Source: Diplonema papillatum
Taxonomy: Eukaryota > Euglenozoa > Diplonemea > Diplonemida > Diplonemidae
Direction: 5' to 3'
Assembly (NCBI GenBank): GCA_030068145.1
Contig: JAPJBO010000201.1
Coordinates: 124,001 to 188,000, forward strand
Length of the DNA: 64,000 bases
How positions within the stretch are numbered: the first letter of the stretch is position 1; each line of letters starts with the position of its first letter. Positions 16,645 through 58,602 of this stretch are shown one piece after another. Both the position numbers and the translations under genes were made by a program. Below the pieces are notes generated by a model that did not search any database, was not told where the DNA came from, and worked only from the letters and a program-made list of their open reading frames with translations.

Positions 16645-19373
16645 TTAGTCAGCCGTTTCTTTGCGGTTCATGTCGACGCGGTAAAGGAACCGCTGCACCA
16701 TGCACACGATGAAGATGATGTCGTCTTTGAAAACGCTCATGCGGTGCATGGTTGGCATGCGGACGATCAGCGCGAACAAGTCGTCGATGAACGTGTTGAT
16801 GAACCGGTACGTCAGCAGCCGCCAAGGCAGATGCGCAACGCTTTTGAGCTTGTAGTTGATGATCACCTGCGGCGTCATGAGCAAGAACCCGGCCGAGTAC
16901 GCGAGACCGGCGAGGGAATGAATGATCCACGAAACCCAGCTGTAATGCTTCGAGTGAACCAAAGAATACCCCGCGACCGCCAAAGCCACGGGCACGAGCA
17001 CCTGCACTGTGTGGCGCATGACGCGCCGGTCAGTTTCGACGGTCAGCCTCGTCAGCTCGTTGCTGCCGGCCCCTTCCAGCTCCACTCTCGTCATTTTGAA
17101 GAAAGGATACGAGCTCGTCATCGTTAACCCCGTCGCTCGCCTGAGCTTCCAAATTTGAATCAGCAATCCGATGGCCCCCGGTAGTAGGATGACAGCGCTG
17201 GCTTGTTCATCCAGGAGGTAGAAGTAGATGAGGACTTGCAGCAACAGGTCGAAGATCAGCGTGGTGAAGCTGAGGCCGCAAAGAGAGTTGTTTTCTTGCC
17301 AGAAGGAGACGTCCGACTTGAACGCGAGGAATTCGAAGAGGCAGTGCAGCACCGTTGCGATGACGGTGATGGTCAGCAGCGGGAGGCTCGTGTTCGCGAA
17401 TCCGTCTATGATCTCTTGAAACTCGCTGTCTTCTATGCCCATCGTCTTCACAGCCTCTGCGCGCGTTTTTTTTTTTTTTTTAGAGCTATAGTTCGCTTAA
17501 GAATCGGGATTTTAGAGTCTCCGGGTGATCTTTGTCGAATGGGTTCTTTTGAAGCTAATACGTACTGGGTGGGTTTGGGAGTGTCGTAATATGGCCTTCA
17601 AAAGAATGTGAGGTCTGTCTTTTAGAGTGCAAGTTCGCTTAGGGATCCGGGGGTTTATAGTCTCCGGGTGACCGTAGTCGTAAAGGTTCCTTTAAGGTAT
17701 AGTATGTTTGTGTGTATATCTTTTGCTGGGGAGCTCTTCTTAGGAAGGGCATCGCGGCCGCTGATGTGCGGTCGTAGCTTGCTGTCCGACTCGGCGAAAG
17801 CGGGTCCGAGAACGACCACCGCATATCTTCTGGAGTTGAATCGCAGGGTTTGATGAAATTTGGATGGTGTTTGGTCCATGGATCTTTAGTGAGAGCGACT
17901 GACGATTTCCCAAAATCGTCTAGTCTCGTGAGGTTCACACTTCAAAGGCATGGATTGATCTTTGGAAAAACAGGTCGTTCGAATGAAACTCGGTTGACGT
18001 TTGGTATCCAAAGGTCACGATTCTGAAGTCTCCCAGTGAATATTTCGTCAAATGGGCTCGTTCAGCCCTTCTTTATGACCGGGAGATCTTCCCCAGAAGG
18101 CTTTCTACGTGCAACCTCCCTCCCCCTCCGTCCGTAAGGATCAGTAGTAGTGTGTCGATAGACTGCACAAACTAGTAGTATGTGTCGTCTGCCGAAGCAG
18201 CAGGCCCTTCCTTCGTTGTTTGTGCGCACTTCCTTCAACCCTGTTTTCTTCATCTAACTGGAGTGAGGATAGTACGCTGCCATGAGTCGGCTCTTGGTTA
18301 CACACAGTGCACGCCAATCCACGTGGTTCGTAGACAAACGAACACCGTGCTTCGACGGGGTATAGGGGACGGGTGCGCGCACCTTTCGTTTTTTCGAAGT
18401 GGTTCATCAGAAGCCACTTGGAAAGGTCGGACGAGACGTCGATCGACAGCCGCAGCGGGAACCCGGCCGTGGTGCCGTTGATGACCTCGACGCCGCCGTT
18501 CGTGTCGAGGCTGGTCGACACCGGCGAACTGTAGACGGGGGGCAGGTATTTTTTGTTGCGGCCGAGCACCCGCAGGAACGGGTGCAGATTCGGGAGGAAC
18601 GCGCGCTCCTTGGCGGGGAGCGGCTCCCCGGCGGCCACTACGCGGGCGAGGATGTCCGACTTCCAGACCCGCGCCTTGTCTCCGCGGGTGTGCGCTTCGA
18701 TGGACGCGTCGGACGCCGCTTTGTACGAGGGAACCCCGCTGAAGTGGCCGAGACCGAGGTCCTGCAGCAGCCACCGTTCCGTCACGTATTTCGGGACGCT
18801 CGAGTTCGCCGTCAATTGAGTGGCCGCTGCCTGCACTGTTTTCGCCCTCAAATCGACCGCGCCCTCCTCCGAGATCAGCGTGACCACGAACAGCTGCGCC
18901 TTCGCCGATTTGTTGACCATCTTCTTCCACATCCCCGCCGACGGCCGGACTACCGGGCGGCCGGCGGCCTTGCGCGCCAGCCGTCGCCACTCCGCCCTCG
19001 CCCAGAGCGAGCGGAGGAGGGGACCGGCGGTCTTCCTCGCAGGGGTTGCCCGCGGGCGGTGGAAGAAGAGGTCGCGGGTGAGCTGGATGCCGTCGGACAG
19101 CTGAAACGGCTGCTTCCACGCCAGGAGGCAGTCGCGGTCGGACGCGCGGCACGCGGCCTCCGACTCGGGGACGCTGGGCGAGGTCGTGATGAAGGCGCGG
19201 ACCTCAAGGGCGGCGCCCTGCTGCCAGTAGGGCAGCAAGGGGTCCGCCATCTGCTCGGCCGTCAGCTTGCTCAGCGGGAAGATCACCGGCCACATCGTGT
19301 TGCACAGCATCACGAAGTAGGCCACCGCCAGCAGCGTCGCCATCGACCCCGTAGACACGGGCAGGTTCACCAT
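16645..19373 (-). CDS. CLPTM1: CLPTM1-family transmembrane protein (lipid scramblase-like)
   Basis: This two-exon gene encodes 600 aa: exon 1 is 19373-18383 and exon 2 is 17456-16645, joined in phase 1 (AAAG/GTGCGC to CGCGCAG). The first ATG is followed by one membrane segment (about residues 10-32), a long lumenal region, and then several membrane segments in exon 2. Exon 2 carries the family signatures FEFLAFKSDVSFW, NYKLKSVAHLPWRLLTYRF and NTFIDDLFA, with a C-terminal FLYRVDMNR. In exon 1, YLPPVYSSPVS and FPLRLSIDVSSDLSKW match the strand-rich lumenal domain. CLPTM1L is known as a glucosaminyl-phosphatidylinositol scramblase of the ER, and CLPTM1 affects GABA-A receptor trafficking. The length fits the family (about 540-670). 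Upstream, 5' copies of exon 1 are arrayed in tandem (19430-21880). Confidence 0.9.
17457..18382 (-). other. Intron of the CLPTM1 gene
   Basis: This 926-bp intron has a GTGCGCGC donor, a T/A-rich tract and a CGCGCAG acceptor. Much of it (about 17482-18060) consists of degenerate units of about 135 bp containing GTTCGCTTA and AGTCTCCGGGTGA. One unit recurs at 59212-59310. Confidence 0.7.
17617..17720 (+). repeat. Dispersed repeat I, intron copy
   Basis: TTTAGAGTGCAAGTTCGCTT through AGTATGTTTGTGTG matches 59212-59310 closely. A diverged neighbour starts near 17482 (TTTAGAGCTATAGTTCGC). Confidence 0.65.
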
Positions 19374-19429
19374 CGTTTTACGTTTCCCCACCACCCCGCA
19401 CCCTTCAAGCGTTTCTAGACTGTGTTTCG

Positions 19430-21880
19430 AGTTTTGAGTATCCGTGTTATTACGACAGTAAAGACAAGTTGGGGTTCTTTCGCCGGGTATGGCTGGTACT
19501 TGTTAGTTCGTCTTTTGGGTGGTCTTTGCAGGAGATTACTTGAGGTTGAACAGTCCGGTGTTTTGGGGTCTCCGGTTGAACATTGAGGCTGTTCATCCTC
19601 GCCCAGAGTAGGCATCCCGCAGCAGGCGGTGGAAGAAGAGGTCGCGGGTGAGCTGGATGCTGTCGGCACAGCTGAAACTGCTTCCACGCCAGGAGGCAGT
19701 TGCGGTCGGATGCCCGACGCTGCTCGGGGTCGCGGCGTGATGAAGGCGCGGACCTCAAGGGCGCCCTGCTGCCAGTAGGGCAGCAAGGGGTCCGCCATCT
19801 GCTCGGCCGTCAGCTTGCTCAGCGGGAAGATCACCGGCCACATCGTGTTGCACACAGCATCACGAAGTAGGCCACCGCCAGCAGACGGGCAGGTTCACCA
19901 TCGTTTTACGTTTCCCCACCACCCCGCACCCTTCAAGCGTTTCTACACTGTGTTTCGAGTTTTGAGGATCCGTGTTATTACGACAGTAAAGACAAGTTGG
20001 GGTTCTTTCGCCGGGTATGGGTATGGCTGGTACTTGTTAGTTCGTCTGTTGGGTGGTCTTTGCAGGAGATTACTTGAGGTTGAACAGTCCGGTGTTTTGG
20101 GGTCTCCGGTTGAACATTGAGGCTGTTCATCCTCGCCCAGAGTGGGCATCCCGCAGGCGGTGGAAGAAGAGGTCGCGGGTGAGCTGGATGCTGTCGGCAC
20201 AGCTGAAACTGCTTCCACGCCAGGAGGCAGTCGCGGTCGGACGCGCGGCACGCGGCCTCCGACTCGGGGACGCTGGGCGAGGTCGTGATGAAGGCGCGGA
20301 CCTCAAGGGCGGCGCCCTGCTGCCAGTAGGGCAGCAAGGGGTCCGCCATCTGCTCGGCCGTCAGCTTGCTCAGCGGGAAGATCACCGGCCACATCGTGTT
20401 GCACAGCATCACGAAGTAGGCCACCGCCAGCAGCGTCGCCATCGACCCCGTAGACACGGGCAGGTTCACCATCGTTTTACGTTTCCCCACCACCCGCACC
20501 CTTCAAGCGTTTCTAGACTGTGTTTCGAGTTTTGAGTATCCGCGTTTTTACGACAGTAAAGACAAGTTGGGGTTCTTTCGCCGGGTATGGCTGGTACTTG
20601 TTAGTTCGTCTTTTGGGTGGTCTTTGCAGGAGATTACTTGAGGTTGAACAGTCCGGTGTTTTGGAGTCTCCGGTTGAACATTGAGGCTGTTCATCCTCGC
20701 CCAGAGTGGGCATCCCGCAGGCGGTGGAAGAAGAGGTCGCGGGTGAGCTGGATGATGTCGGCACAGCTGAAACGGCTGCTTCCACGCCAGGAGGCAGTTG
20801 CGGTCGGATGCGCGGCCTCCGACGCTGCTCGGATACGCTGGGCGAGGTCGTGATGAAGGCGCGGACCTCAAGGGCGGCGCCCTGCTGCCAGTAGGGCAGC
20901 AAGGGGTCCGCCATCTGCTCGGCCGTCAGCTTGCTCAGCGGGAAGATCACCGGCCACATCGTGTTGCACAGCATCACGAAGTAGGCCACCGCCAGCAGCG
21001 TCGCCATCGACCCCGTAGACACGGGCAGGTTCACCATCGTTTTACGTTTCCCCACCACCCGCACCCTTCAAGCGTTTCTACACTGTGTTTCGAGTTTTGA
21101 GGATCCGTGTTATTACGACAGTAAAGACAAGTTGGGGTTCTTTCGCCGGGTATGGGTATGGCTGGTACTTGTTAGTTCGTCTGTTGGGTGGTCTTTGCAG
21201 GAGATTACTTGAGGTTGAACAGTCCGGTGTTTTGGGGTCTCCGGTTGAACATTGAGGCTGTTCATCCTCGCCCAGAGTGGGCATCCCGCAGGCGGTGGAA
21301 GAAGATGGGGGTGAGCTGGATGCTGTCGGCACAGCTGAAACTGCTTCCACGCCAGGAGGCAGTTGCGGTCGGATGCCCGATGCTGCTCGGGGACGCTGGG
21401 CGAGGTCGTGATGAAGGCGCGGACCTCAAGGGCGGCGCCCTGCTGCCAGTAGGGCAGCAAGGGGTCCGCCATCTGCTCGGCCGTCAGCTTGCTCAGCGGG
21501 AAGACCACCGGCCACATCGTGTTGCACAGCATCACGAAGTAGGCCACCGCCAGCAGCCTCGCCATCAACCCCGTAGACACGGGCAGGTTCACCATCGTTT
21601 TACTTTTCCCCACCACCCCGCACCCTTCAAGCGTTTCTAGACTGTGTTTCGAGTTTTGAGGATCCGTGTTATTACGTCTCCGGTCGACAGTAAAGACGAG
21701 TTGGGGTTCTTTCGTCGGGTACGGGTATGGCTGGTACTTGGTAGTTCGTCTTTTGGGTGGTCTTTGCAGGAGATTACTTGAGGTTGAAGAGCCCGGTGTT
21801 GGAGTCTCTGGTTGAACATTGAGGCTTTCATCCTCGCCCAGAGTGGACATCCCGCAGGCGGTGGTTCCACGGAGCATGAA
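19430..21880 (-). pseudogene. Tandem array of truncated CLPTM1 5' ends (4 copies plus a partial)
   Basis: Upstream of the CLPTM1 gene, units of about 530-570 bp repeat the first part of exon 1 together with its upstream sequence. Their ATGs lie near 19901, 20472, 21037 and 21597. Each copy keeps the start MVNLPVSTGS and the membrane segment. It then breaks off around the LTRDLFFHR point and runs into a common linker of about 330 bp (on the plus strand GGAGATTACTTGAGGTTG and CATTGAGGCTGTTCATCC). A last fragment at about 21640-21880 has linker only. The copies carry small private deletions, several of which break the frame. Each unit may include the promoter, since the linker precedes each start in gene direction. 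No copy can encode a whole protein. Confidence 0.85.
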
Positions 21881-22573: not shown

Positions 22574-23934
22574 AACAAGTGATGTCACATGCTATGGGAC
22601 ATATAACGTGGCTTAACATGAGACCACAACAAGTGGCGGAATATGTGACAAAAACCACAACATAGCTACATGCTATATAACATGGAATGACATGTACAGA
22701 AATAGTCTCATGACTCTGACGGTACCCCAATGATTACTAGCCGGCTCGACTTCCAGTACAGGTTTGCCACACACACACGTACACGTGCGATCACATGTAA
22801 AAGCTCACAACAAGTGGGTCGTGTATTCCCCAAATTCCTACCTTCTAGGTTTACCGTGGCCATGGGGAAGGAAGAAGCCCATCCGGTGACGCCAACATGT
22901 TGCAGCTCAAAGCCCGTGAGTTCGTGGGTTTGCTGTCGAGGTCTCGGGGTCTACGCCGCGCAGCGTCCCCATCCTGAAGAAGCGGACGGATCTGCGGGGC
23001 GGTGCAGCGCTACTCCTTCTTTGGTTCTAGCTACCGGCCTGGACCTAACGGGAACGTCGTAGAGACCCTGCTACTATATCGTTCGACGGGTCCTTTGTCC
23101 ACGTATCCAGCTTGAACGAGCGAATTGCTCGGCAACGCCACAACGGACCACCACCAAGGGTTCCCCCGGTCGTCCTGTGGCTTAACTCTTTGCGGACGGG
23201 GGACATATATTTATGCTGGAATAGGTAGAACCCGAGCTGGAATTTGGACACTGCATCTACAGGGCGGAGACACGTCAAAATCTATCTGCATTTGCTGCTG
23301 CGGGTAGATTTGCTACGAAGCCTTTCCAACGATGCCCAGGTTCCCCGTGGTGAAGCCATAAAACACTTGGGCACGATCCACAGGTTCCTCCAGAATGCTT
23401 TCCGCACCCTGGGCAGCCTCCATCGCCCTACGTCCGTAAGGGGTTCATGCACCACTTTTCGGGAGAATAAACACACGCGTGTTGGATGTAACCCACTCGA
23501 TTTGCGGACCGCCGTGTGTACAGATGAATCTTGCGGTGTAGCTCTATGAGAGCACAAAGAGGGTAGAGTGGTGTTCGGCGGGCTCGCAGAGCTAAACCGT
23601 TTCCAATTCACCATAAGCAAGTTCGGGGCCAGGTATCCTATTGAGGACGACTTATTGTTGGGGCGGGGAGAGAAGATGCGCAGGAGGGTGGCCGGCAGGT
23701 GTAAATGAGAGAGCCACTTTATCTTTCAAAAAACGTCTTTGTTTCTCGATTTCTCGGGAGGAGCGATTGCGGTACGTCGGATGGGCCGGTCAGTTGGAAG
23801 AACAGGAGGTGGGTCTGTCTCAGAAACCGTTTCGGTCGTTAGGTACAAAAAGATAATATAACGGAAGAAATGCTCTCCAGAGGGCAAGAGCGTCGCGGTC
23901 AACCGCAGCATGCAAACCATGAGTTGAAGTTTGC
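22574..23934. other. Spacer, nothing recognised
   Basis: The open frames present (up to about 112 codons) show no recognisable motif. Near 22590-22700 there are loosely palindromic AT-rich phrases (ACATGCTATGGGACATATAA and ACATGCTATATAACATGG). Confidence 0.4.
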
Positions 23935-24140: not shown

Positions 24141-24148
24141 GCACGCAC

Positions 24149-25209: not shown

Positions 25210-25394
25210 GGTGGCCGCCTCATCCGGATGGGGAATGCTGCCAGGGGTTCCGTGGGAACAGATCGCCCTCCTTGGAGTCCAGCCTCGGGAGCTGGAGTTA
25301 AAAAGGTGGTGCCTAAGTCACACCCATAAAGCGGATCTGGTACTGTGGAAATGCACACCCGAAAAGCGGGTGTGACACCCGCTTTTTTAAAATT
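25210..25394 (+). repeat. Repeat H, copy 2 of a direct pair
   Basis: It matches 24642-24826 with scattered differences. The start falls directly on the last CCTTGTATGGAC unit, so the spaced array and H may have duplicated together. Confidence 0.85.
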
Positions 25395-28960: not shown

Positions 28961-31262
28961 CTCCGAATGTCGCGAGCTGCAACCGAGCCAAGCACAGCAT
29001 CGGGCGAGCCCAAGCCCGGTACACCTTGGCGGCGACCTCTAAGCACTGCTCTGCTTGCAGCAGGTAGGGCGTTGCCTGCGCCTGCGAGAACGTGCCCTGG
29101 GCGACCAGCCATCCGATGGTGTCCAGGAAGATGAGCACGAACGGGAGCAAGCACGGGTTGAGCGCCGGCGGCAGCACCGCCGACGCCGGCGCCGCGGCGT
29201 CGTCGCCGAACGGCCGCGCGAAGCCGGCCGCCGGCGCCAGCGCGCTTCGGATGGCCAGCGTCACGACGGCGCCGGTGCTGGTGGCGGACGTGTTGGGCTT
29301 GACCTGTGAGAACCGGTGCCGGGGAGGCGGGGTGATGGGCGGGACCGTGATGTCGGAGAGCGGGCGCTCACGCGGGCCGGGGTCGTCGGGCATGCGGTGG
29401 CTAGGCTGGGGGTCCGGCGCGCTGCCCAGCAGTGAGGCTGCCTGCCGGACAAGCGCAGACGGGTCGCGGTGCACGGCATCCGTCGACACACCGTCAACCG
29501 ACATCATCTTCCGGACGGACGAAACCCCCGCCATCGGTTCAGCAGCGGACGCGGACAACATCATGAACAGCAACGACCGAGTCGCCACCTCTTCCCATAT
29601 AGGCTCGTCCAACAGTTGAAGGAGATCTTCGGTGTTGCCTACGACCCGGGGAATCGTGTCTTCGTCCCAGGTGGCGCGCGAGAACAGGAGGTTCACGGCG
29701 CGCCCGAGGCAAATTGCGAGGTGCAGGCAACACTTGTTGCCGTAGGCCTTCGCGTGGTCGAATACGTCGTCGAGCGCGAGGGCGACTGCCTTCGGGGTGC
29801 CGTCCAGCACGGACCCGGCGACTGCGAGCAGCAGCGCGGCCCAGCCGGTGCGGACGTTCCCCGGCTTCGTGAACGCCGTGAAGAACTCCATCCGGCCGCG
29901 ACCCCGGCGGAACGCGAGGTCGCGTCCTTGGCAGCCGTCGATCTCCGCCGAGTCCTCGGCCGCCGCCGCGTCGTCGTCCGCCACGACGTAGTTGCCGCGC
30001 CGCTCAGCGCCGCCGCCGGACTCCCGAAAGCGCCTGCCGCGCGTCCTCCAGTCGCGCGAGAACGACCGGTCGGTCTCGCAGCTTTCGCGGCGCTTCGGGT
30101 CGGTCGTCGAAGAAGGGATGCTGTTCAACGACGGGGTTTTTCGGGGGGTAGTGGCGCTGCGGTGGGGCAGGTCGTCGAGTGTGTAGATGTCGGTAACGGC
30201 GGAGCCAGGTGCCTCGCGCGGGGACGCGGAAGCGTTGTCCGGCAGCGGCGGAGACCGGATGGACGAGACGGCGGTAGCGGTACGCCACTCGTTGGCGACC
30301 GCGACCGTAAACTGCCGCCCGCGGAATGCCGCGTAGCACACCACCATCGGCAGGCACCACGTCCGCCGCCGCACGTCGACGCTCAACCAGTGCTTCGTCG
30401 CCGCCCGCTCGTCCCCCACGAGCAGCAACGCCAACGCCGCGCAGCAATTCGACGCGTTGGCCAAGTCCGTCATCTCCTCCTCGTCCTTCACCCCCGACTT
30501 CCCCGGCTTCCCCGCTCCCAGGGCGCGGCGGACGCCCTCTGTAAACCCGCCGGCCGCCGCCAAGAACAACTCCCCGTCGCTCTGCAGCACCGCGAGGTCC
30601 AACAGCGCTACCAAGTGGTACACGGACCCGATCCGGTCGACCGCCAGCAGCGGCGCCTCGCCGGCCGCCGGCGAGAAGCAGCAGCAGAGCCGAGACAGCA
30701 CCGACGCTTGCTGCCGAAACCGGTCTGCTTCATCGTCCGCGGCCCGGCACACGGCGGCGGCCAGCGCGCTGGCACCCGCGTGCTCGTCCTTCTCCGCGTT
30801 GTCGGCGGGCGCTCCGGCTTTCGCGACGGACTGCGGGCTGTCGAGCGCTGCGAGCCAGGAGTTGTCGTCCTCGAAGAGCTCGGGGACCGCGGCTTGCAAA
30901 AAAGCCTCGCGCGCGGTCTTCCAGGAGCCGAGGGTGGTCTCAAGGTCGACGAGCATGAACACCCAAGTCTTCAGCAGCGTCCGGTCCTTCGGGGACACCT
31001 GGTAGTTCGCCCGGCGAGCGACCGGTGCCGACGCCGGCGTCGGGCACCTGACCGCCATGGAGCTGCCCTCCGACGACCCCAGGCGCGGCTCCCACGCGCC
31101 GTTCGGGGTCGACTGGCGGGCCTTCGGCCCGCCGTCGCCGGCGGTAAGGCCCAGCTCGCTGCGAGAGGCCGCCTTCGCAAGCCCCGGGCGCACCAGCAGG
31201 GTCGTCGGCGGCGGCGGCGGCTGGTCGGGCGGCGGCGGCAGCGGCGGGCCTCCCGGCGGCAT
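28961..31262 (-). CDS. Helical-solenoid (TPR-like) coding exon; possible 3' part of the adenylyl cyclase gene
   Basis: A 767-codon stretch is open from ATG 31262 (GGCACCATGCC context) to a probable donor at 28960 (CGGAG/GTCTGTC). It starts proline-rich (about residues 1-22). Alanine/leucine-rich helices resembling a TPR-like solenoid follow, for example ACLPMVVCYAAFRG-type, KCCLHLAICLGRAVNLLF, and YLLQAEQCLEVAAKVYRAW with LCLARLQLATFGG at the end. A low-complexity charged region interrupts at about 340-450. It lies downstream of, and on the same strand as, the cyclase exons, and soluble adenylyl cyclases end in such a solenoid. It may therefore be a later exon of that gene. Against this, the nearest good acceptor (31303) is out of phase with the last cyclase exon. 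It could also be its own gene. Truncated copies of its 5' end lie at 31620-32445. Confidence 0.6.
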
Positions 31263-31304
31263 GGTGCCGGGGAGGGTCCCGATGGTTTCGCGCCTCTCGT
31301 GCCT

Positions 31305-32445
31305 GTGTATCTTAGTTTCGTGTTCTGGGGGAAAATGTTTCTTGGGTTTGAAGAGCGCGTGGTGCTTGCACCACTGAGGCCACGGTTATTTAACCGCGGA
31401 TTTAGTGAAGGATTGTGCAGGAAACGGTTGCGAGCGAAACCCGGGGGGAGGGAAACCTTATCTTAATGTTTAGGCAGGACACTGCCGTGTCTTTTTCGCG
31501 GGAAGGACGAGTTTTGGCTTATTTTCTTCACTTTTTCCTCTCGTTCATTTGTGCCCTGATATCCCAAACCGGGGATATAAGGGCGCAAAATTGTTTTGAG
31601 TCCATAATATGGGTCTAACATCTGGGTCCTCAGGGCCATGGAGCTGCCCTCCGACGACCCCAGGCGCGGCTCCCACGCGCCGTTCGGGGTCGGCTGGCGG
31701 GCCTTCGGCCCGCCGTCGCCGGCGGTGAGGCCCAGCTCGCTGCGAGAGGCCGCCTTCGCAAGCCCCGGGCGCACCAGCAGGGTCGTCGGCGGCGGCGGCG
31801 GCTGGTCGGGCGGCGGCGGCAGCGGCGGGCCTCCCGGCGGCATGGTGCCGGGGAGTGCCTGTGTATCTTAGTTTCGTGTTCTGGGGGAAAATGTTTCTTG
31901 GGTTTGAAGAGCGCGTGGTGCTTGCACCACTGAGGCCACGGTTATTTAACCGCGGATTTAGTGAAGGATTGTGCAGGAAACGGTTGCGAGCGAAACCTGG
32001 GGGGAGGGAAACCTTATCTTAATGTTTAGGCAGGACACTGCCGTGTCTTTTTCGCGGGAAGGACGAGTTTTGGCTTATTTTCTTCACTTTTTCCTCTCGT
32101 TCATTTGTGTCATCCCAAACCGGGGATATAAGGGCGCAAAATTGTTTTGAGTCCATAATATGGGTCTAACATCTGGGTCCTCAGGGCCATGGAGCTGCCC
32201 TCCGACGACCCCAGGCGCGGCTCCCACGCGCCGTTCGGGGTCGACTGGCGGGCCTTCGGCCCGCCGTCGCCGGCGGTGAGGCCCAGCTCGCTGCGGGAGG
32301 CCGCCTTCGCAAGCCCCGGGCGCACCAGCAGGGTCGTCGGCGGCGGCGGCGGCGGGCCTCCCGTGCCGGGGAGTGTCCCGATGGTTTCGCGCCTCTCGTG
32401 CCAGGGAAACCTTATCTTAATGTTTAGGCAGGACACTGCCATGCC
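31305..32445 (-). pseudogene. Tandem truncated copies of the solenoid exon's 5' end
   Basis: Two extra copies of the first about 70 codons (31620-31860 and 32188-32410) follow the true exon at intervals of about 560 bp. Each breaks off after the SSEGSSMA point and runs into a shared linker of about 340 bp containing GTTTAGGCAGGACACTGCC and GGTTATTTAACCGCGG. The same linker precedes the intact exon. The third copy has lost part of the proline stretch. Architecture and unit size resemble the CLPTM1 array. Confidence 0.85.
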
Positions 32446-32483
32446 TTTTTCGCGGGAAGGACGAGTTTTGGCTTATTTTCTTG

Positions 32484-33596: not shown

Positions 33597-33671
33597 ACCT
33601 CCCCGATTTTCCCCGATTTTAAAATCGGGGGGTTTTAGCCCCCGACTTTCCCCGGGTTTCCCCGATTTGTG

Positions 33672-33835
33672 ACCCCGAACGGCGCGTGGGAGCCGCGCCT
33701 GGGGTCGTCGGAGGGCAGCTCCATGGCCCTAAGGACCCAGATGTTAGACCCATATTATGGACTCAAAACAATTTTGCGCCCTTATACCCCGGTTTGGGAT
33801 ATCAGGGCACAAATGAACGAGAGGAAAAAGTGAAG
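33672..33835 (+). repeat. Inverted fragment of the solenoid 5' array
   Basis: In the opposite orientation to the tandem copies, this contains the exon piece (GGGAGCCGCGCCTGGGG...GGCAGCTCCATGGC) joined to the array linker (CTAAGGACCCAGATGTTAGA). The exon/linker junction exists only in truncated copies, so this piece derives from one of them and not from the gene. Confidence 0.8.
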
Positions 33836-34447
33836 AATATCGTATCCACGGGTGTTCGCTGGAAGAGATGGTAATCGTGGTAAACTTTCTTTTTGTTCCT
33901 TTTACGGCTATTCTCTCCTTTTATGCGTCTTTTGCTCTCTATTGCTGGGAATACCGGTATTCCTGGACTTTTGGTGCTGAAGGAAGGGATGAATCCGTTC
34001 ACTTCACCCCCCACGTGGCGCTCGTTTAGCAGGGGCTGCCGAGTCGCACCGTGGCACCGTCCTTCTGTGAAGTAAACATAGTAATAAATACTGTTGTCTT
34101 CATTACCCTCGTAGCTCGCCGGGTCAGCATTGATATCGTATCCACGGGTGCTCGCTGGAAGAGAAAAGAAAACGGAGAAGAAGTAAAACTTGACAGAGAA
34201 TCCAACACTAGGCGAGTGTGCTTTATATTCTCCGCATGAGTAGATGTCATGGCCCGTAAGAAACAGCCGGAGAAAACTTATTCTGAGAGTATCCCATACT
34301 GGCTCCGTCTGCTGCTTCGTCTTTACCGTCGCGGATGATGCAAAAATCGAAAGTAGAAAGGTCGGGCAGTGATTCGGTGTGTTTGTCACAATTGTCGTGA
34401 CGCCTCAGGACACGGCTTCAGAAAAAGGGGGTAACAGTGGGTGGGCA
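33836..34447. other. Spacer with a duplicated splice-acceptor-like segment
   Basis: The phrase CGAGCACCCGTGGATACGAT, read on the minus strand after a T/C-rich CTCTTCCAG, occurs at about 34140, and a diverged form at 33840. The same acceptor-like segment of about 100 bp is at 60740-60840 on the plus strand. A minus-strand frame through 33802-34200 (STRGYDINADPASYEG) looks protein-like but cannot be tied to a gene. Confidence 0.4.
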
Positions 34448-43200: not shown

Positions 43201-46200
43201 GGAATCGCCAACCTTGCGACTCAGCTACACTGCTGCGTGTCGGCAGGAAAAAAAGAAATGCATCACCGCATAGTCTTCAGACGGATTTTCGAAGATTACG
43301 CAATTTCATACTTCGTGAGCGTGATTCTCGCACACCCCTGGACGTTCTTGTGCCATGTGGACTATGAAATGGTGTTCCAGCACGTTGCTGAGCACATAAC
43401 AGCCTTGTGGGAGATCATCAGGTTGTGTGTAGCCTAAACATCAGGTTGTCGTTCGTTGTCGTTGGAACGAAATCCAAACGTGAATTTTTGGGTGGAAATA
43501 CAGGGGTCGACACAAGGGTCCGCGGTTCGAACCCCACGAAGGACTTTTTTTTGGGTCAATTCCCACAGGTGACATTTTTACCCCCCCCCCCCCGGGACAA
43601 TTCCCATTATAGTACACTTCCTTATGTTTGTGCCCATTCTCGAACACTATTTAACTTTTTGCCCATTCTCGAACACTCGCTAACTTTTTGCCCATTCTCG
43701 AACACTTTTTAACTTTTTGCCCATTCTCGGTAACTTTGTGCCCATTCTCGAACACTATTTAACTTTTTGCCCATTCTCGAACATTCCAGTTTTTGTGATG
43801 AAAATGTCACTTCCCCGAGACATTTGCCTCAAGTTTTACCGCGAGAACAGCTGAGTTCACTGATTCGAAGACGGTACCCTTGCTAACTTCAGGCCGCAGC
43901 CTCTTCGGCATCTACACTCGGGTTCTTGGTTGCTTCAAGCTCTTCTACACGTGACGGTGGTGTGCGAGCTACCCCGTTTAAAAACCCGGCACAGACTTCA
44001 CTGAGTTTGCTCGTCTTGCTTGCAAATTGTGCGGCGGCCATTGAGTGACCTTAGTTCACTGACCTACACCAGGAGAAGCAGCTTGCAAACTTTGCAGCAA
44101 AGTGATTCAAAAAGTGTGACCGAAAGTATTTGGGTCAAATTTTTTGGTCAAAAATTCGGGGTCCAACTTTTTTGGTCAACTTTTTTTCAGAGTTGAAGTG
44201 GCAGCGGTTACACTTGGCACATGGCTGCATGATGGCAGGAGAAATGGCTCCTGCCATGCGCCCTGGCGGCTCGCCGGCAATTCCAGTCTCTCTCTCAGCC
44301 TGCCAGCCTGCGGCAGGGAGGACAAGATCCAGTCACCAGCCGCCAGCTCCTGATTATTTTCAGACGACTGGCACTTTTTCTTTGCAGCTTCTACTGTAAG
44401 AGTAGCATCACTCAAATCTTGATTGGCCCGCTCCTCCTCTGGAGTCATTCGTGACGTCGCGCCCGTCGCTGGTTACTACTCGTGGTAAAACAGTGGCTCT
44501 GATTCTGAAGAGGTTTCGGCACAGAATTTGGAAGCGCTACAAGTAGAACGGGCTGGTCACTCGCGCATACCTGAATTATGCACGAATCTGTGTGCACAAT
44601 ACCTGTAGAAAACCGTTTACCCGTAATCTGCGGTGTCAGTGACCCAGTGCGCAGCCAGGATACCGAGCCGGGACGCAGCAGCCAACCACAATGCTGGCAC
44701 CTTGTTCGAGGTACGGATCCGACGGAAATCGGAATCGGAAATGGCGAACCCAAAAATGGCTGGGATTTTTTGGATGTATGGGTGGTGAGTTCGAATCCCA
44801 CCCTGGGCAATTTTCAATGTTCGAGAATGGGCAAAAAGTTAGGCGACTGTTCGAGAATGGGCAAAAAGTTAAAAAGTGTTCGAGAATGGGCAAAAAGTTA
44901 GCGAGTGTTCGAGAATGGGCAAAAAGTTAAATTGTGTTCGAGAATGGGAATTAGCCCCCCCCCCCCCTATTTTCGGAAATTTGGTGGAAAATGTCTACCA
45001 AAATGTTAATTGTGGCTCCCCCAAAGTATCAGGTTCTTCGCGTGTGCAGAGTATGAACTTCTCTGGAGGGTTTCCTGGTGTATCACCTTGGTTGGCTTCG
45101 GTTTTCTCTTTAACCGTAGTTCCGGAAACAATCCCGTCAGTACAAAATGAACCATCTTCTTCTAAACAGATGGCATGGGGGAAGGTCAGCATACAGGAGG
45201 ATACGATGGAGACACGTGCACTCGATGGGCGGATCAAGGTGGTGGCGACGTTCGAGGGCGAGGCGAGAGGGTGACGGGCCAAGGTGCTGGTGGGGGACAG
45301 GAGGCTGGGGATGTCGGGGGATCCGATGTGGCGCTCGGAGGTCGACCGGAGAGACGGCGAGGTGTGGTGCGGCGCGGGAAGCAGCTTGTTGAGGATCGGC
45401 GGCTCCTGGATGACCACTGGGTTCGGCATCGGGCTCGCCATGGGGTTGTGCGCCGTGAACAGCTTGAGAGGTGCCGGCGTCGACGGAACGGACACCGCTC
45501 GGGATGACGTCGCCATGGAGGCTTCATCCACATCGGCGTCGCCGCCGTCAGACTCGCACGGCTTCTCTGCGACAGGATCTCCCGGCAGTTTCGTGCAGAC
45601 AACCGAGATGACGAAGTCTCGGCTGATTTCGTCGCATTCTCTCTTCTTCAGGTTAAGCTGGTCCTCGTTGGCTAACGGAGTGAACCCGAAGGCGTCGACA
45701 ATCTCGATCAGCACGTCGAGCGAGCAGAGGTCCACGAGGTGGATGTCGTCGAGCAGCAGGCACAGCACGTTCGCCGCGCTGCCCCGGAGGGGCTGTAGCA
45801 GCGCGTGGCAGAAACGGGCGTGCTCGCGCAGCGCCGCGGCCAGCAGGTCGCGGACGACAAGCGGGCTCACGACGCTCCGCCGCTGCGCGTGCCGGCGCGC
45901 CGACACGCCGGGGACAAGCCGCTCGACGACGCTGAACATCGCCTCCGGGTCCTCCATCGTGTTGACGACCGACACCAGCCACGCAGCGCCCGGCGGCGCT
46001 TCCGCCGCCCTCGACGGCGATCGCGCGCGTACCGGCCGCTGAGGCGTCGGCCCGTTCTGCGTCCGGCGCGGAGAGACCCGCGCCGGCTTGCACATCGCGT
46101 CCCCGCCCTCCGGCGACTTCGGCGACCGCGGAGACGGCGGCTGCGCCGAAGGGCTGCCGCCCCTGTCGCCGCCGTCAGTGCCGTTGTCCGCGACGCTGAC

Positions 46201-49200
46201 GAGCACTTTCATGGTCGCGCGGGCTGTTGGAGACGTGCAGCCGCTGGGCGACCGGAGGATCGACTTGCGGGGGGATCCGGTGGGCACGCGGACGTCCTCG
46301 GCGGAGAATTGCTCGCTTTCGTCCCTCGTCAGCGCGGAGTCGTACCCGTCGTGCAACGCCATCAGCGCCTTGAGCCACGAGGTGACGCCGCTGTACTGGA
46401 AGATGTTCCCCTGCCCGCTGGTGAGCGCGACCACGGGTATGCCCGCCGTGCTAGCCGCCGCGGCCGCGAAGTTCGCGCGCCCGGGTTTTTCCGCTGCGCC
46501 GCACGGTTTCACCGGCGCGCCGGCGACAAACCACTCGAACCGCTGGTGGATCCCCAGCAGCAGCGCGGTCTTCCCCGTGCCGGGCGCCCCGTCAACGAAC
46601 ATCCACCGCGCCGGCAGCGACTCCGCTTCGGCGTCATCGCTGGTGGGCTTCAAAAGCGGAGACGACACGTCCCGTCCCGGAGAGCCCGGGTCCGTCCTTT
46701 TCGCCGCCGTGGGCTGCGGGGGGTGCCTGTCACCCTGGGGATTCGAGAAGGGGGAGTGGGCGGGGCTGTGTCCGTCCTGCGGCAGCAGGGTCATCGGCGG
46801 CGGCGAAGGGGTGCGGTCGCGGCCGTCGCCGGGGGGCGAGTCGAACGCGGAAATCCCGCCGATTTGCAGCACCGGCGGCGGCTGCGCGGCGGCGTGCGGC
46901 GGCACGAGGGCCGGGCACGGCTCCTCGAGCGGCGGCGGCTCCGGCGACAGGTTGCCGACAGCCCCCGGGGATATCGGCGGCGCCGGTGGCGAGAAGCACG
47001 ACGGGTGCACCAGTGAGGGGGTCGTCGGGGTCGGATGGTCCGCCCGCACCCGGGCGGCCGCGGCGGCCGCGGCGCGGCGGGCCTCGGCCCGGTGGATGTC
47101 GGAGACGAACTGTTCATACGCAGCGAGCTCCGCGTTGCGGCCGAACACGCTCGGCTTCGGGTAGGCCTGCTCCTCACGAAGCTCGGCCGCCGGCAGCCGG
47201 AATGACCCGCTGGGGCCGTTGCTCTTGAGGGCGAACGACACCGCCAGCGCGCTGCCAGCGATGCTAAACCGCTGACGCGCACCCCCGTCCGCAAACGCGT
47301 TGTGCCTGTCCCCCGACGCGGTTCTAGGGCAGCCCCCCCGCACTCTCGAGTCGTCGGACCGCCGCCCGAGCGAGCGGAACGACCCATCGCTCCGCACCTT
47401 CTTCCCGAGGTGGAACGACAGCCGCGAGCGGTTCAAGGCGCTGAACCCAGGGGACATAGCGGAAAGGGATGGGCTTCCATCCACCCCTGGTATCGATCCG
47501 GTGTTCACCCTCCGGGAGACCGACGACGTCGTGCTCCGGCTGAACCGTTTGTCGTAGAACAGAGAGCCGGCGACCGACGAGCGGTGGCCACGTGTGGCGG
47601 TAGAGTCGATGGACGCCCTGCTTTTCCGGTGGGTCGAGCCTATGTTCGACCCTTGGTTCGACAGCGGCAGCGACGCGCCAGCCCCATACGCGGGGAGGTC
47701 GAGGACAGCCGCGGTGATGGTACCCGTTTTCCCCTTGACGCGGATGTCGAGCGTGGCTTCGAACACGACGACGTCGCTCACCTCCGCGTAGATCGTCTCG
47801 TCGACCACGACGACTCCGTCAAGCACCGGGTTCGAGCCGCCGCCGTCCGACCCGCTTGTCGACGACGCGGGCGGCTGCGCCGAATCGCGCCTGGTGGCCG
47901 CGAACGACATCAGCCGCGACGCGAGGTTGACCGAGTCTCCGAGCACCGTGTATTCCGCCCGGAAGTTGTTGCCAAGCTCCCCGCAGTACACCTTCCCGCG
48001 GGAGATTCCGATGCAGATGCCGCCGACCTCTGGGGACAGGCTCGATATGAGGTCGTGCGCGAGGTTCAGGGCGCGCGTGCTGTCGTCCGCGTGGACGAAC
48101 TGCGGGAGGCCGAAGCAGATGAGCGCGACGAGGCCCTTGTCATCGAACATCGCCTTGTTGCACACGCCGCCGTAACGGTGGCATGACTTCTGCAGCCCCG
48201 CAGCGACCTCGTACAGCGACTCTTCCTCGCCGGCGGTGGCGTCGGTGATCGAGCAGAACTTCACGAAGATGGTCACCACGGACCGTATGTCCGCGGCTCT
48301 ACTGCTCACGGCGGAGCCTTTGCCCGCATTTTTTGTGAGGTTGCGCGGCACGAAGGAACGGAGCAGCATCGCCGCGTCTTCGGACACTTCGACGTCTGGA
48401 ATGCCGCCCGGCTGCTGGTAGACGGGTGCGAACGGAGGAACGAGCATGGTCGATCGGTTTGCCAGGACCTGCTTCCCGGAGAAGCAGCCGTCCATGAACC
48501 CGCGCTTCCGCAGCACCTTTGTGGCGCTGCTGTGCACGACGATGTGCGCGGGCAGGCAGTCCTGGCACGCGGTCGCTGCGTCGTTCCACGTCTCGCCGCC
48601 GGCGAACAGGACCCAGCGGCCCCGGTACCCTCCCGCGATCACTATCGACACCGGTCCCACGGCCACCCCGAGCTTCAGCGAGATATCGACGTGGCGCCCG
48701 AGGAGGTCCACCGTCGCCGTTCCTGCATGTCGTGTTTCGGGGTTTGGGAATCATAGTCTAACGTTTAGGCAGAACACTGCCTCTCATGCATGATTGATGC
48801 TGACATCAAACTTTCTTGGAAGAAGACACGGGAGTGAAAAGTATGAATATAAACGTAGTTCAGTGGTGCCGCGTGAAGGGGTGACACATTTTTATAAGTA
48901 GAGCTCGATTTGTGATTTAACTTCTGCGTGAAAGAGGAGCGTTGTGCCGACGATGTGCGCGTCTTGCCGCCGGCGAACAGGACCGGTACCCTTCCACGGC
49001 CACCCCGAGCTTCAGCGAGATATCGACGTGGCGCCCGAGGAGGTCCACCGTCGCCTTCCTGCATGTCGTGTTTCGGGGTTTGGGAATATTAGTCTAACGT
49101 TTAGGCAGAACACTGCCTCTCATGCATGATTGATGCTGACATCAAACTTTCTTGCAAGAAGACAAGGGAGTGAAAAGTATGAATATAAACGTAGTTCAGT

Positions 49201-50151
49201 GGTGCCGGGTGAACGGGGTAATCTCAGGGCCGCCCACGTGATAAAGTCGTTGAGCGAATACTGACCAGCTGACAATCAGCCGGCTGATTTTTGGAATTTT
49301 TGGTCTGCCGATCGGAAGGTTTTTGCGACAACATCTTGACCTTGCGTCCGTGGGCGGCACAGCCAAAGCTTACACTCTTGAAAGCAGGTAACCAAAATGG
49401 GTCTTTTTTGTTGAACGCTTACGCCGGCCACTGAACCCAGATTCACCTGTGTTTCGTGTGGGCTTCAGCACATTTACCTCCTTTGATCTTTTGCAGCTGG
49501 CAGCCTCCTCAAGGACTTCCTACAAAGCAGGTGCTTATACAAAACCAAAATGGGTGGCACACCGGCAGAAGCGCTGATCATTTGCGCGCATTTGAGGGCG
49601 AACGCGCAGTTGGTGTCGGCGCCGGCGCTGCCGACGTGGAAGATGGCCATGATGGCGTCGCCGGCGAACTGTACGACGTCGCCGCGGAACGCGGCCAGGA
49701 TTTCGAGCACGCGGTCGAAATACGCGTTGAGGACGTTCGATATGCTCTCCGCCCCGTCCCCTGTGCACGACGAGCTCAGGATGCCCGTCAATGCGGTGAA
49801 CCCGACTACATCGATGCACATGACCGCGGTCCCCGGCAGGATGCTCGTCTTGTTCTCGAGACAAGGCTCCTCCAACCGGGAGAGATACTCGAGAATCCAG
49901 CGGGGGAGGTAATGCGCGAAGTTCGCCACGACCGCCGCCGCCCGTTGGCCGGGAGTCCTGTCTTGCGAGGTGCGCGCGGGTGCTTCTAGAGCGGCCAAGT
50001 CTGTGTCCCGGGTGGCCTTCAGCTTCACGAAGCGCATGGCTTTGAAGGGGTCACTGCCTATAGAAGACGATGTCTGCGATAGGCTCCGCTGCGAGTCGCT
50101 CGAGCTGCATCTTGACATGGCCAAGGCACGCGGACCGCTGTTTCCGGACAT
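37202..50151 (-). CDS. ADCY10-like: Soluble adenylyl cyclase (ADCY10-like), exons 1-4
   Basis: Exons are 50151-49563, 48722-45216, 38922-38492 and 37768-37202, about 1698 codons with matching phases (1, 1, 0). Class III cyclase domain C1 (about 105-260) has CIDVVGFTALT with D114 and a FAGDA motif near 164. C2 (about 342-475) reads FVKFCSI at the first metal position, so it may lack that Asp, but keeps YTVLGDSVNLASRL. After a Ser-rich linker comes a P-loop ATPase (GAPGTGKT at 908-915; LLLDDIHLVD near 1185). Exon 3 holds the ATPase lid (IYSEGVPGMAAMILTQL) and exon 4 a solenoid start (ASHFSTGEGHEQALVWYKRA). ADCY10-type enzymes make cAMP and respond to bicarbonate and calcium; that is family knowledge. 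The ATG of exon 1 is the first in frame, and an upstream exon is possible. The exon 2 donor (45215) has alternatives up to about 200 bp downstream. Confidence 0.85.
38932..39890 (+). repeat. 11-bp minisatellite, about 87 units, at the exon 3 acceptor
   Basis: The unit is GGGTACACAGT, with a minority GGATACACAGT variant. Because 11 is not a multiple of 3, every frame yields the same 11-residue repeat: TQWVHSGYTVG on the plus strand and VPTVYPLCTHC on the minus. No frame contains a stop. The array begins 9 nt from the start of cyclase exon 3 and ends exactly at the left inverted repeat of the 39891-45022 element. Read through without splicing, it is in frame with exon 3. Confidence 0.97.
40084..41060 (+). 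repeat. Direct array of about 240-bp tRNA-like units (left arm)
   Basis: Units start at about 40084, 40335, 40587, 40817 and 41055. Each contains GATGCACAAGCGTGTTCTGG, ACGTCTCCGTCCAAATTGTG and a B-box-like GGTTCAATCCCGGCAGC. They also carry short inverted phrases of the type GAACACGCTTGTG/CACAAGCGTGTTC. This suggests they began as a tRNA-related, Pol III-type repeat. Confidence 0.8.
41418..41490 (-). other. tRNA-like sequence in the centre of the composite element
   Basis: On the minus strand GTGTGGTTGAGTCG resembles an A box and GGGTTCAATCCCGG a B box, with a GGGCGACTTCGGAGCC middle arm. The D stem and acceptor stem do not close well, so it is scored as tRNA-like. The sequence and about 120 bp to its right recur at 43165-43340. 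Confidence 0.4.
41740..43100 (-). repeat. Inverted array of about 235-bp tRNA-like units (right arm)
   Basis: CGTCCAGCTGCCGGGATTGA, the reverse of the left-arm end, recurs at about 41914, 42149, 42384, 42619 and 42846, with a partial near 43083. Neighbouring units differ by only a few bases, so this arm expanded recently. With the left arm it forms an inverted repeat of about 3 kb around a centre near 41500. Confidence 0.8.
43165..43245 (-). other. tRNA-like sequence, second copy
   Basis: GTGTAGCTGAGTCGC (A-box-like) and CCGGGTTCAAACCCGG (T arm with a six-base loop) are spaced as in a tRNA. The other stems are weak. Its right flank repeats that of the copy at 41418-41490. Two further half-tRNA-like B boxes lie at about 43515-43545 and 44770-44810. 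Confidence 0.4.
43625..43795 (+). repeat. Short array TTGCCCATTCTCGAACA (left half of inner hairpin)
   Basis: About six units of roughly 28 bp are present. The reverse-complement array, TGTTCGAGAATGGGCAAAAA, is at 44815-44950, so the two can pair across about 1 kb. Confidence 0.85.
44815..44950 (+). repeat. Short array TGTTCGAGAATGGGCAAAAA (right half of inner hairpin)
   Basis: About five units are inverted relative to 43625-43795, ending just before a C run and the right terminal inverted repeat. Confidence 0.85.
48955..49135 (-). pseudogene. Decayed copy of the 5' end of cyclase exon 2
   Basis: Inside intron 1, the acceptor region and first part of exon 2 are repeated (GACGGTGGACCTCCTCGGGC, CACGTCGATATCTCGC, TCCTGTTCGCCGGCGGC), with several deletions inside the exon part and a one-base loss that breaks the frame. 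The upstream intron phrase GTTTAGGCAGAACACTGCC is also duplicated. The spacing from the real exon start is about 355 bp. Confidence 0.85.
49398..49544 (+). mobile_element. Type A retroposon, 5'-truncated, flanked by a 12-bp direct repeat
   Basis: The copy starts within the consensus at TGGGTCTTTTTTGTTGAACG and ends GTGCTTATACAAA. ACCAAAATGGGT occurs at 49391-49402 and again at 49544-49555 and may be a target-site duplication, though the left copy overlaps sequence resembling the element itself. The element is antisense to the cyclase gene, and its tail lies 18 nt from the exon 1 donor. Confidence 0.75.
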
Positions 50152-55268: not shown

Positions 55269-55518
55269 ACGTACCAGGGAAAGCCTGCTACACGGGAGCC
55301 AAGCTTCACGTGTTCGGCGGTACTGCAGAGCCATGGGCCTACGGGTCTGGCTACCGATTTCCCTAGCAATCAAGGCGTGGCGCACCTTGGGGCTTGGCGC
55401 TTGCGCTGAACACAAGCTTGTCGAGACGGTCAGCCACAGAGCAGAGCGGACGGGTTGTGGCACTGTGCTGCCTCCGACTCAAGCTTTGCAAGCTGTGGTT
55501 GACCGTCACGTTCCTTGA
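55269..55518 (+). repeat. Dispersed repeat G, copy 2
   Basis: GTACCAGGGAAAGCCTGCTA through CCAAGCTTCACGTGTTCGG to GTGGTTGACCGTCACGTTCC is close to 58611-58870 and to the reverse of 23935-24140. Confidence 0.75.
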
Positions 55519-56666
55519 ACCGGAGCAGCCTCTTTCCTTTTCCTTCCGGTGACGGCAAGCGTCGGACTAGCCCCCAGAGCACGGGTGTCCTTGCGTTTTG
55601 CCTCCTGGGCATGCCTGGCACAGGGGATTAGCTAGTATTGCCAAATTCGGACTGCGGTCCAAATCTGGTACAGTAGCTATATATAATCCCCTGCATGCCT
55701 CGAAGTGGCAGGAGCGCCAGTGGGCTTCAGGCGCACTTCCCAGGGGCCCAGCCTGTCGCAGCCGGCCGGTGCTCAGCGCAAACGACGGAAATGTCTGCAC
55801 GTTTCCTGCTATAAGGCAGCGAAGGCGGGCGTCCTCGGCTGTGCCGGGATCGAGACTGAGTAACTCTGGAGCAAGCATAGTGAGCACTGAAAGATGTGAG
55901 TCCCCCAAGGCAGTGCAAACCAAAGCTGCTGCCTGTAGTGTAGAGGAGAAGACGGGAAAAGAGCGCAGGGATGCGCTTGAGTAGGCGGAAGACTGCAGCT
56001 GCTCCAATGTCTGGCGCCGATGGGGCGGCTTCTTGTTTTCCTCATCAACCAATGAATCGAAGATTGTTGTTGGTGGAGATGAGGAGGGCGGTTGGCCAAT
56101 TTCGCCCACCTCCACGTGAATATCCTCTTGCCCTTGCTTGGACTTTCACGTACTCCTTCAGCGTCTTTGGACAACAACAAGAAAACACTCGGCTGGCGCT
56201 GTGAGCTCTCGAGGTGCCACCAGAAGTGTCCAGAAGAAGGTCACCTGCGAGTGACTCTCTATTTTTCAGAGCTCAATACACAAAAGTTGTACACGTAAAG
56301 AAGCTCGTCCGTTATACAGCAGGAGAGTCGGCACCATAGGTCCCGATCAATCGTGAAAGACTTCATCTGAACACCGCGAACTGTAGTCGTTCGTCATCAG
56401 CTAGCTGCTGTATCACAAGCGAGCGCATCCAGTTCCACGTCAAAAGCACGGTGGAACTGGTGGGATGTGAGTCTGCCAGTTGCAGTTGCCACGTACGAGG
56501 GGAACTCACCCACGCCGAGAATTTCCTCTGCCGCTGTATCGGAGTTCATCCTGTTTCATGCCACCAAGCACGATAGAGCTGGTGGGATGTAAATCTCAGT
56601 TGGCAGTTGCTACTTACAAAGGGGGGGCGGTTCACCCCCCGCTGGAACGCCGGGGTTGGGCTGGCG
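55519..56666. other. Spacer downstream of the Rieske gene
   Basis: It should contain the 3' untranslated region of the minus-strand Rieske gene. The phrase AGCTGGTGGGATGTRARTCT appears twice (near 56455 and 56577), suggesting a small diverged duplication. A minus-strand open stretch at 55567-56115 is not supported by motifs. Confidence 0.4.
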
Positions 56667-58130
56667 CTACGGGTCCCGGTCGATCGTGAACGACTCCATG
56701 TGGATCAGGTCCTCGGGGTACGAGGCGCGGACGAGAGCGTCGTGCATCCCAGACATGAACGGGCCGGGGCCGCAGATGTAGGTGTGTCGGGGCGTCGGGC
56801 ACGCCTCGACGACTTGCGAGGGCAGGATGCGGCCGATGTTACGCTCGATGGCGGGTTGGTCAGGGTCCACTCCCGTCCACGCCGCGACGGTCTCCGGCGC
56901 GGCGCGGGTCAAGTGCAAGACCAGCCGCACGCCGGGCGACTGCGCCCACGCCTCCACCTCGTCCCTCGCGATGAAGGCAGCCAGCGACCGGTCGCTGTAG
57001 AACAGGGTGATGTCGCCGATTTTCCGGCCCTCCCGCCGCATGCGGTCCTCCGTCAGCGCCGCGCGCATCATGGCTATTATCGGCGTGATCCCCACCCCGG
57101 CGCAGATGAGCAGAACGGACGCGTTTTCGTGCGGCAAAGGGTGGACAGTGAACCCGAAGTCGCCTCCGAAGCTCAGCAGCCGCAGGTCCTGCCCGACTTT
57201 CACGGCGTCGATCAAGTGCGACGAGACTAATCCGTCATCAACCTTCCGGACGATCAACTCGAGCATGGTGTCCGACGGCCGCGAGACGACTGTCCACATG
57301 CGGGATGCCTTCAACTGCGGGATGTATATCTCCGCGAATTGCCCGGGGATTCCGGTGCGGAGGTCTACGTCCGCGACGCTCGCCGGTTCGGCGTCGAGGA
57401 CGCCGAAGCGGAAGAGGCAGGTCTCGTTGGACTCCGCGATGGGCAACCGCTCTAATAGCTTCACGGGGCGGCCTTTGACCGACTTCGACAGCCGCCGGGG
57501 GGAATCCGGCGCGTCGCGGGCGTCGAGGTCGTTCATGCCGCTGTGGATGCCGGAGTTGCCGCCGCTGAGCATCGCCCGGCTGGCGTACACGTCGCTTTCG
57601 ATGGGCTCCGCGTCGTCGTTGATTTCGATGTACAACTCGTCGGCGTCCAACCCCCGCACCACTCGGTGCGGTCTTTGCTTGCAACCTTTCGACCGCAGAA
57701 CCTTGTCCCGCTTGTTGAGCAGGGTTCCCGCAAAGTCGGATTTGAGCCCCCAATACAGCCCTTCGCCTTCCTTCAGCGTGATTCGATACCCGTGCCATGG
57801 GCAAACCACGCACGTCTTCCCGCCGAGCTCTTCAATGTCCCCGTTCGCGAGGCTCGCCCCGTGGTGGTAGCAAGCGTTGTCGAGGGCGAAGTAGTCGCCG
57901 TCGACCTTCCACACGGCCATTTCGCGCCCGCCGCCGTGCACGATCCGCGCCCCGCGCACGCTTCTGTCGTCGAACGACGACGCCTTGCCCACGTACACCT
58001 TCACGGGCGCCTGGCTGTACGTCTCCTGCGGCGACGCGGGGTTGTCGGCGTTCTTCTCCGCCATGCCTTTCGCCTTCGCAGGGCCGGTGCCATCATCCTC
58101 CGCTTCTCCTTTGAAGCAGACGCCGCCCAT
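56667..58130 (-). CDS. Rieske [2Fe-2S] / ferredoxin-reductase-type fusion oxidoreductase
   Basis: This complete single-exon gene encodes 487 aa. The N-terminus MGGVCF fits N-myristoylation at Gly2 with a possible palmitoylated Cys5, so membrane attachment is likely. A Rieske domain follows (about 43-150), with C87-x-H89 and C110-PW-H113 as iron-sulfur ligands. After a linker rich in Asp/Ser/Arg, a ferredoxin-NADP reductase-like module (about 235-487) shows an FAD-binding RMWTVVSRPSD, a pyridine-nucleotide ICAGVGITP and a CGPGPFM motif, ending FTIDRDP. Electrons would pass from NAD(P)H through FAD to the Rieske cluster or an unknown acceptor. No plant-type ferredoxin domain is present at the C-terminus, and no oxygenase catalytic domain is fused, so it is a reductase-like protein rather than a Rieske oxygenase. 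The substrate is unknown. Confidence 0.9.
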   Translation of the reverse strand: MGGVCFKGEAEDDGTGPAKAKGMAEKNADNPASPQETYSQAPVKVYVGKASSFDDRSVRGARIVHGGGREMAVWKVDGDYFALDNACYHHGASLANGDIEELGGKTCVVCPWHGYRITLKEGEGLYWGLKSDFAGTLLNKRDKVLRSKGCKQRPHRVVRGLDADELYIEINDDAEPIESDVYASRAMLSGGNSGIHSGMNDLDARDAPDSPRRLSKSVKGRPVKLLERLPIAESNETCLFRFGVLDAEPASVADVDLRTGIPGQFAEIYIPQLKASRMWTVVSRPSDTMLELIVRKVDDGLVSSHLIDAVKVGQDLRLLSFGGDFGFTVHPLPHENASVLLICAGVGITPIIAMMRAALTEDRMRREGRKIGDITLFYSDRSLAAFIARDEVEAWAQSPGVRLVLHLTRAAPETVAAWTGVDPDQPAIERNIGRILPSQVVEACPTPRHTYICGPGPFMSGMHDALVRASYPEDLIHMESFTIDRDP

Positions 58131-58289
58131 TTTCTGGCGCGTTCGCCTTCGAGAACCCCTGGGATGCGGTTTTCTTTCCTTTTTTCATGTGAAACGAATG
58201 GATTATTGTACATTATTGTATTTCCCCCGCCGACCAAGAATTATTGTATTTTTATTGTACAATATTGTATATTATCCACCTGGTCCAGA

Positions 58290-58372: not shown

Positions 58373-58468
58373 TGTGGCGACCACTTTCCCTACAGCCGGC
58401 CTTGGCGAAGGCGGGGAGGGGGCTACGCTATTATGGCCCTACCTTGCGCAGAGCGGTCCCGTGTTTGG

Positions 58469-58602
58469 CTATGCCATGCCTTTCGCCTTCGCAGGGCCGG
58501 TGCCATCATCCTCCGCTTCTCCTTTGAAGCAGACGCCGCCCATTTTATGGCGCGTTCGCCTTCGAGAACCCCTGGGATGCGGTTTTCTTTCCTTTTTTTC
58601 TG
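58469..58602 (-). pseudogene. Truncated copy of the Rieske gene's 5' end
   Basis: This matches 58063-58190: the first 24 codons (start MGGVCFKGEAEDDG, ATG at 58541) plus about 60 bp of upstream sequence, with one or two substitutions. It breaks off at the codon for Ala24. The copy lies about 410 bp upstream of the real start. Confidence 0.9.

Follow-up and report, generated by a model that had tools for sequence, protein, structure and literature searches.

The 5' ends of four exons, belonging to three genes, carry extra upstream copies within a stretch of 64,000 nucleotides of the Diplonema papillatum genome, referred to here as the window. Self-BLAST and unit alignments place these copies at exon 1 of CLPTM1, at exon 2 and the 'solenoid' exon of a cyclase, and at the start of a Rieske/FAD/NAD oxidoreductase gene, as the initial annotation of the window had described. 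That annotation counted four separate genes; there are three. A joined cyclase model matches the D. papillatum GenBank protein 'Adenylate cyclase 2' (P0023, 2709 aa), and mapping this protein on the window places exon 2 of the cyclase and the solenoid exon in the same gene. We read the four sites as repeat-bounded gene structures, in which a local segment was duplicated in tandem, later decayed, and was tolerated outside the mature mRNA, and we give this reading a probability of about 0.82. The phenomenon is already known under this name in D. papillatum, and is real but ordinary for the species. The available text of Valach et al. 2023 (PMC10161547) reports dozens of D. papillatum gene models with tandem repeats of part of the 5'-UTR and coding sequence, an architecture that matches the four sites described here. 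The general duplication process proposed in the initial annotation is right, and published. The example given in that text has 12-13 copies at one gene, whereas the present sites have 1-4 copies, and two of them are internal exons of one gene. A literature search found no further description of these gene structures besides PMC10161547.

The copied exon starts

All four copied exon starts lie on the minus strand, and the window self-BLAST places their copies in direct order, save for one inverted fragment of the solenoid unit. The CLPTM1 and solenoid units adjoin, while the cyclase and Rieske copies are set off from the gene by filler. A protein-level scan of the window, covering 11 exon frames, returned convincing local copies of these four exon starts only. 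The other scan matches were low-identity compositional noise, or read-through exon ends matching a dispersed repeat family.

The two-exon model of CLPTM1 matches the D. papillatum GenBank protein P0016 with 100% identity and coverage. The intact exon 1 occupies 18385..19373 (minus strand), with its ATG at 19373 and P0016 residues 1-332 mapping to 19373-18378, the exon end being approximate. Self-BLAST and unit alignments resolve the array at 19049-21864 into five units of 534-571 bp each, the last being the gene and the other four its upstream copies. The gene-proximal unit (19055..19621) runs on into the gene, and is followed on the same strand by copies c1 (19622..20155), c2 (20156..20719), c3 (20720..21290) and the most distal, c4 (21291..21856). 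Copy c1 bears a 22-bp deletion and loses the frame after 13 codons; in total it differs from the gene by 9 indels (one, of 3 bp, at a trimmed alignment edge) and 14 substitutions. Copy c2 has 0.9% substitutions relative to the gene unit, and frame-breaking indels in the copies include examples of 22, 8 and 1 bp. The stretch AACACAG, judged by eye to be a candidate acceptor, is kept in all copies some 50 bp ahead of the ATG.

The CLPTM1 array also preserves its founding junction. The most distal unit starts at the eight bases CCACCGCC (21857..21864, minus strand), and the same eight bases stand in the exon at 19055-19062, giving an 8-bp microhomology at both breakpoints. By comparison, a run of at least 8 bases common to both sides occurs in 0.05% of random junctions. 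The block formed by c3 and c2 differs from that formed by c1 and the gene at 10 of 1091 aligned bases, whereas c3 and c2 differ from each other at 19 of 562. As the two blocks are closer to one another than c3 is to c2, a two-unit block was duplicated after the founding microhomology junction.

The Rieske gene (56667..58130, minus strand) has a coding frame from the ATG at 58130 and Pfam matches. A copy that takes in its 5' flank and the first 71 bases of coding sequence, found by self-BLAST and alignments, lies at 58473..58612 on the same strand, and 58060-58201 aligns with 58473-58612 over 142 positions at 95.8%. The 71 coding bases are identical to those of the gene, the sole gap (2 bases) lying upstream of the ATG; the copy reaches a stop after 24 codons. 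Some 70 bp of upstream sequence is included in the repeat, so that part of the 5'-UTR and coding sequence is repeated beside the gene, as it is at CLPTM1. About 260 bp of unmatched filler separates copy and gene.

In Adenylate cyclase 2, exon 2 of the gene occupies 45196..48720 (minus strand; P0023 residues 198-1372). Its copy, at 48945..49217 on the same strand, holds the end of the intron and the start of the exon with internal deletions. Self-BLAST aligns 48657-48881 with 48994-49217 over 225 positions at 96.9%, beginning within the intron, and about 158 bp of intron is repeated along with the exon start. When aligned less strictly, the match extends further into the exon, interrupted by deletions of 24, 10 and 44 bp. 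The copies had been said to stop at a point inside the exon; the cyclase copy instead fades through these deletions, with no sharp stop. It has a 1-bp frame-breaking indel, and about 63 bp of unmatched filler lies between it and the gene.

The solenoid exon of the same gene (28962..31301, minus strand; P0023 residues 1871-2650) stands at the end of an array at 31054-32482, which self-BLAST and unit alignments divide into three units including that of the gene, i.e. two copies. Copy c1 (31622..32092, minus strand) is without the 25 bp immediately before the ATG, and copy c2 (32173..32482, minus strand) shows gaps of 9 and 24 bp in its coding part. On its distal side the array is disturbed, ending at a dispersed repeat (32462-32614) with a second copy at 60585-60737. 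A 171-bp fragment of a further unit, 98% identical, lies inverted at 33671..33840 on the plus strand, and ends at a motif that belongs to the other side of this dispersed repeat. The terminal motif GATATCGTATCCACGGGTG...CGCTGGAAGAG and its relatives occur at 33838 (in the inverted fragment), at 34133, and at both ends of the repeat 60585-60840; this recurrence suggests a small mobile element. A history in which an element entered the solenoid region at a unit junction and was inverted afterwards is no more than a possibility, three copies of one terminal motif being present there and at 60.8 kb.

The cyclase exon 2 copy and the solenoid copies sit within introns of a single gene by the P0023 mapping, and the duplicated segment crosses the intron-exon boundary at exon 2 and in the solenoid units. 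A duplication across an intron-exon boundary has been described in potato, where, according to the available text of PMC4974935, the segment likewise spans an intron end and the next exon start. In the potato case a new intron was detected, whereas the present duplications are seen in genome sequence and gene models.

Additionally, every unit at the solenoid exon and at cyclase exon 2 carries GGCAGTGTYCTGCCTAAACRTTA ahead of the exon sequence, so that the motif stands in two introns of one gene. Its five matches in the window, at 31464-31486, 32020-32042, 32418-32440, 48759-48781 and 49095-49117 (minus strand), compare with 0 expected in shuffles. The introns of this gene also hold satellites, with a 91-bp unit in 24 copies (34449-36617) and an 11-bp unit in about 87 copies (38936-39889).

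Taken together, these alignments qualify two further points of the initial annotation. Small frame-breaking deletions do occur at CLPTM1 and cyclase exon 2, but not at Rieske, where the coding bases are identical, nor in solenoid copy c2, where the gaps are multiples of three. Upstream sequence is indeed repeated in the two larger arrays, but is not limited to them, as cyclase exon 2 and Rieske repeat it too.

Placement of the duplications and other repeats in the window

All four source segments overlapped exon 5' ends in 2 of 100,000 random placements. With seven local duplications, picked after seeing the data, the probability that at least four fall at exon 5' ends is 0.0002. Placement at exon 5' ends beyond that of a uniform model is thus supported, with the proviso that uniform placement ignores selection removing duplications inside coding sequence. 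The seven, all from self-BLAST, were the four sites and the pairs 24642/25211, 26546/26775 and 61552/61923. The test left out satellite and minisatellite arrays, pieces of the arrays themselves, 1093/1153 (76%), 11138/11513 and 11154/11432 (68-77%), as well as 24158/26427 (81%, 2.3 kb apart, dispersed family) and 41410/43155 (82%, 1.7 kb apart, satellite region). It used thirteen exons, the 5' ends of a VPS13-like gene, the gene at 9705-10616 and the gene at 12179 being guessed from open reading frames, and took the BLAST-aligned part as the cyclase length.

The initial annotation had regarded the architecture as one-sided. The ratio of copied 5' to copied 3' exon ends in the window is 4:0, which is weak (one-sided p = 0.0625, two-sided 0.125; counted by gene, 3:0, 0.125), and the 3' ends of first exons are also repeated in other D. 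papillatum genes, according to the available text of PMC10161547. Strict one-sidedness is not supported.

The window is rich in repeats of other kinds. A dispersed family of about 145-225 bp has seven copies in either orientation (10848, 14315, 22347, 36924, 49393, 54465, 60326), several of them near exon ends. We rejected the idea that the cyclase introns arose from this family in the manner of introners; the start of the element lies about 10 bp from the preceding exon end in one case and about 93 bp in another, and so keeps no fixed splice boundary. At 61552-62314, two head-to-tail copies (92%) have ends CAGGGGACTTT and AAAGTCCCCTG, noted by eye, and are probably small terminal-inverted-repeat elements. 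A pair of 184-bp direct repeats with 96% identity, at 24642-24824 and 25211-25394, flanks minisatellite-like sequence, and a 235-bp satellite forms two arrays in opposite orientation (40076-41206, 41755-43102). A search of Rfam gave no matches at gathering scores.

Origin and fate of the copies

Tandem duplication at short microhomology, followed by unequal exchange, is a general mechanism. The CLPTM1 array resembles it in the 8-bp identity at its founding junction and in the later multi-unit duplication, although microhomology was found at this one junction of the four sites only. Under the reading that we prefer, a local segment running from upstream sequence across a candidate splice acceptor into the start of the coding sequence would have been duplicated in tandem. 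The gene-proximal unit would remain continuous with the remainder of the exon and stay functional, and the upstream units would be truncated by construction. At CLPTM1, the founding junction at the microhomology was followed by the two-unit block duplication, and arrays may have grown further by unequal exchange between units. The copies would then decay without function, in a manner rich in indels, and would be tolerated because the mature mRNA contains none of them, each lying ahead of the spliced-leader acceptor or inside a cis-spliced intron.

Two of the sites fit simple tandem duplication less well, as it would not leave the unmatched filler seen at cyclase exon 2 and Rieske. These single copies could instead be captured fragments, inserted in break repair or by a mobile element. 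The Rieske copy in fact directly follows a dispersed repeat (58614-58891), which is also found by self-BLAST at 55273-55541 and, at 82%, at 23885-24122. However, both copies are in direct order, only about 340 bp (cyclase) and 410 bp (Rieske) from their source, and neither self-BLAST nor the protein-level scan found another copy of these fragments within the window, so that we regard capture as unlikely. That the copies are assembly artefacts is far less probable still. According to the available text of PMC10161547, the contigs were merged from two assemblers, and some artificially duplicated or collapsed repeats are to be expected. Against this, the copies diverge from one another by 0.9-4.7% and have distinct indels, the window is without any N, and the same text describes a haploid strain and a similar array elsewhere that is supported by PacBio reads. 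Haploidy also speaks against haplotype duplicates, and retroposed copies were rejected on account of the intron or intergenic sequence that the units carry.

The explanation we consider least probable is that selection maintains the duplicated 5' units, whether as additional promoters or as first exons of an alternative kind; the selection for duplicated promoters suggested in the initial annotation is unlikely. One feature that such selection might produce is the unusual uniformity of the 5' part of CLPTM1 exon 1, where a 95-base block is 99-100% identical across all five units. Yet the copies are broken, and the available text of PMC10161547 describes D. papillatum genes as transcribed jointly in clusters, their mRNAs maturing through spliced-leader trans-splicing, which makes gene-specific promoters unlikely; the PacBio-supported array studied there is missing from mature mRNA.

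The view that copies stay outside the mRNA is opposed by the public gene model, which takes two solenoid copies as exons. P0023 uses 31867-31619, in c1, for residues 1788-1870 and 32409-32122, in c2, for residues 1692-1787, with GT-AG introns between the units. All three units might then be spliced in and translated, as a true tandem exon duplication yielding a cyclase with a triplicated proline-rich segment. The coding gaps of c2, all multiples of three, agree with this, as does the use of assembled transcripts as input to the annotation pipeline behind P0023 (available text of PMC10161547). But three nearly identical units would use three different acceptors, and the reading phase is equally kept if the preceding exon (end 37244) is joined straight to the one at 31301. 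Four aligned homologues, of nine others found, have no such repeated segment, a short, unrelated-looking stretch being aligned there in P0026. Moreover, the available text of PMC10161547 warns that such repeats give over-long models and spurious introns. True exon duplication is possible but doubtful, and the extra exons of P0023 are more likely an annotation effect than real.

Consequences for the genome of D. papillatum

A stronger proposal is that exon 5' ends of this trans-splicing genome are genuine hot spots where tandem duplications survive, either by virtue of an acceptor-carrying segment being invisible in the mature mRNA or by breaks clustering there. New exons and introns would then be supplied steadily by the arrays, the triplicated proline-rich segment of Adenylate cyclase 2 being one in the making. 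We consider this proposal quite improbable as a whole, although new or alternative exons may arise from the solenoid array. A survival filter is plausible, in which a duplicated unit with a splice acceptor would leave the mature mRNA unchanged, while a repeat at the 3' end of a gene would enter a long 3'-UTR.

Arrays of this kind distort gene models in the D. papillatum genome, and two of the repeat units in the public Adenylate cyclase 2 protein may be superfluous. Should a 5' bias hold across the genome, it would show cleanly how the architecture of splicing determines which duplications are retained.
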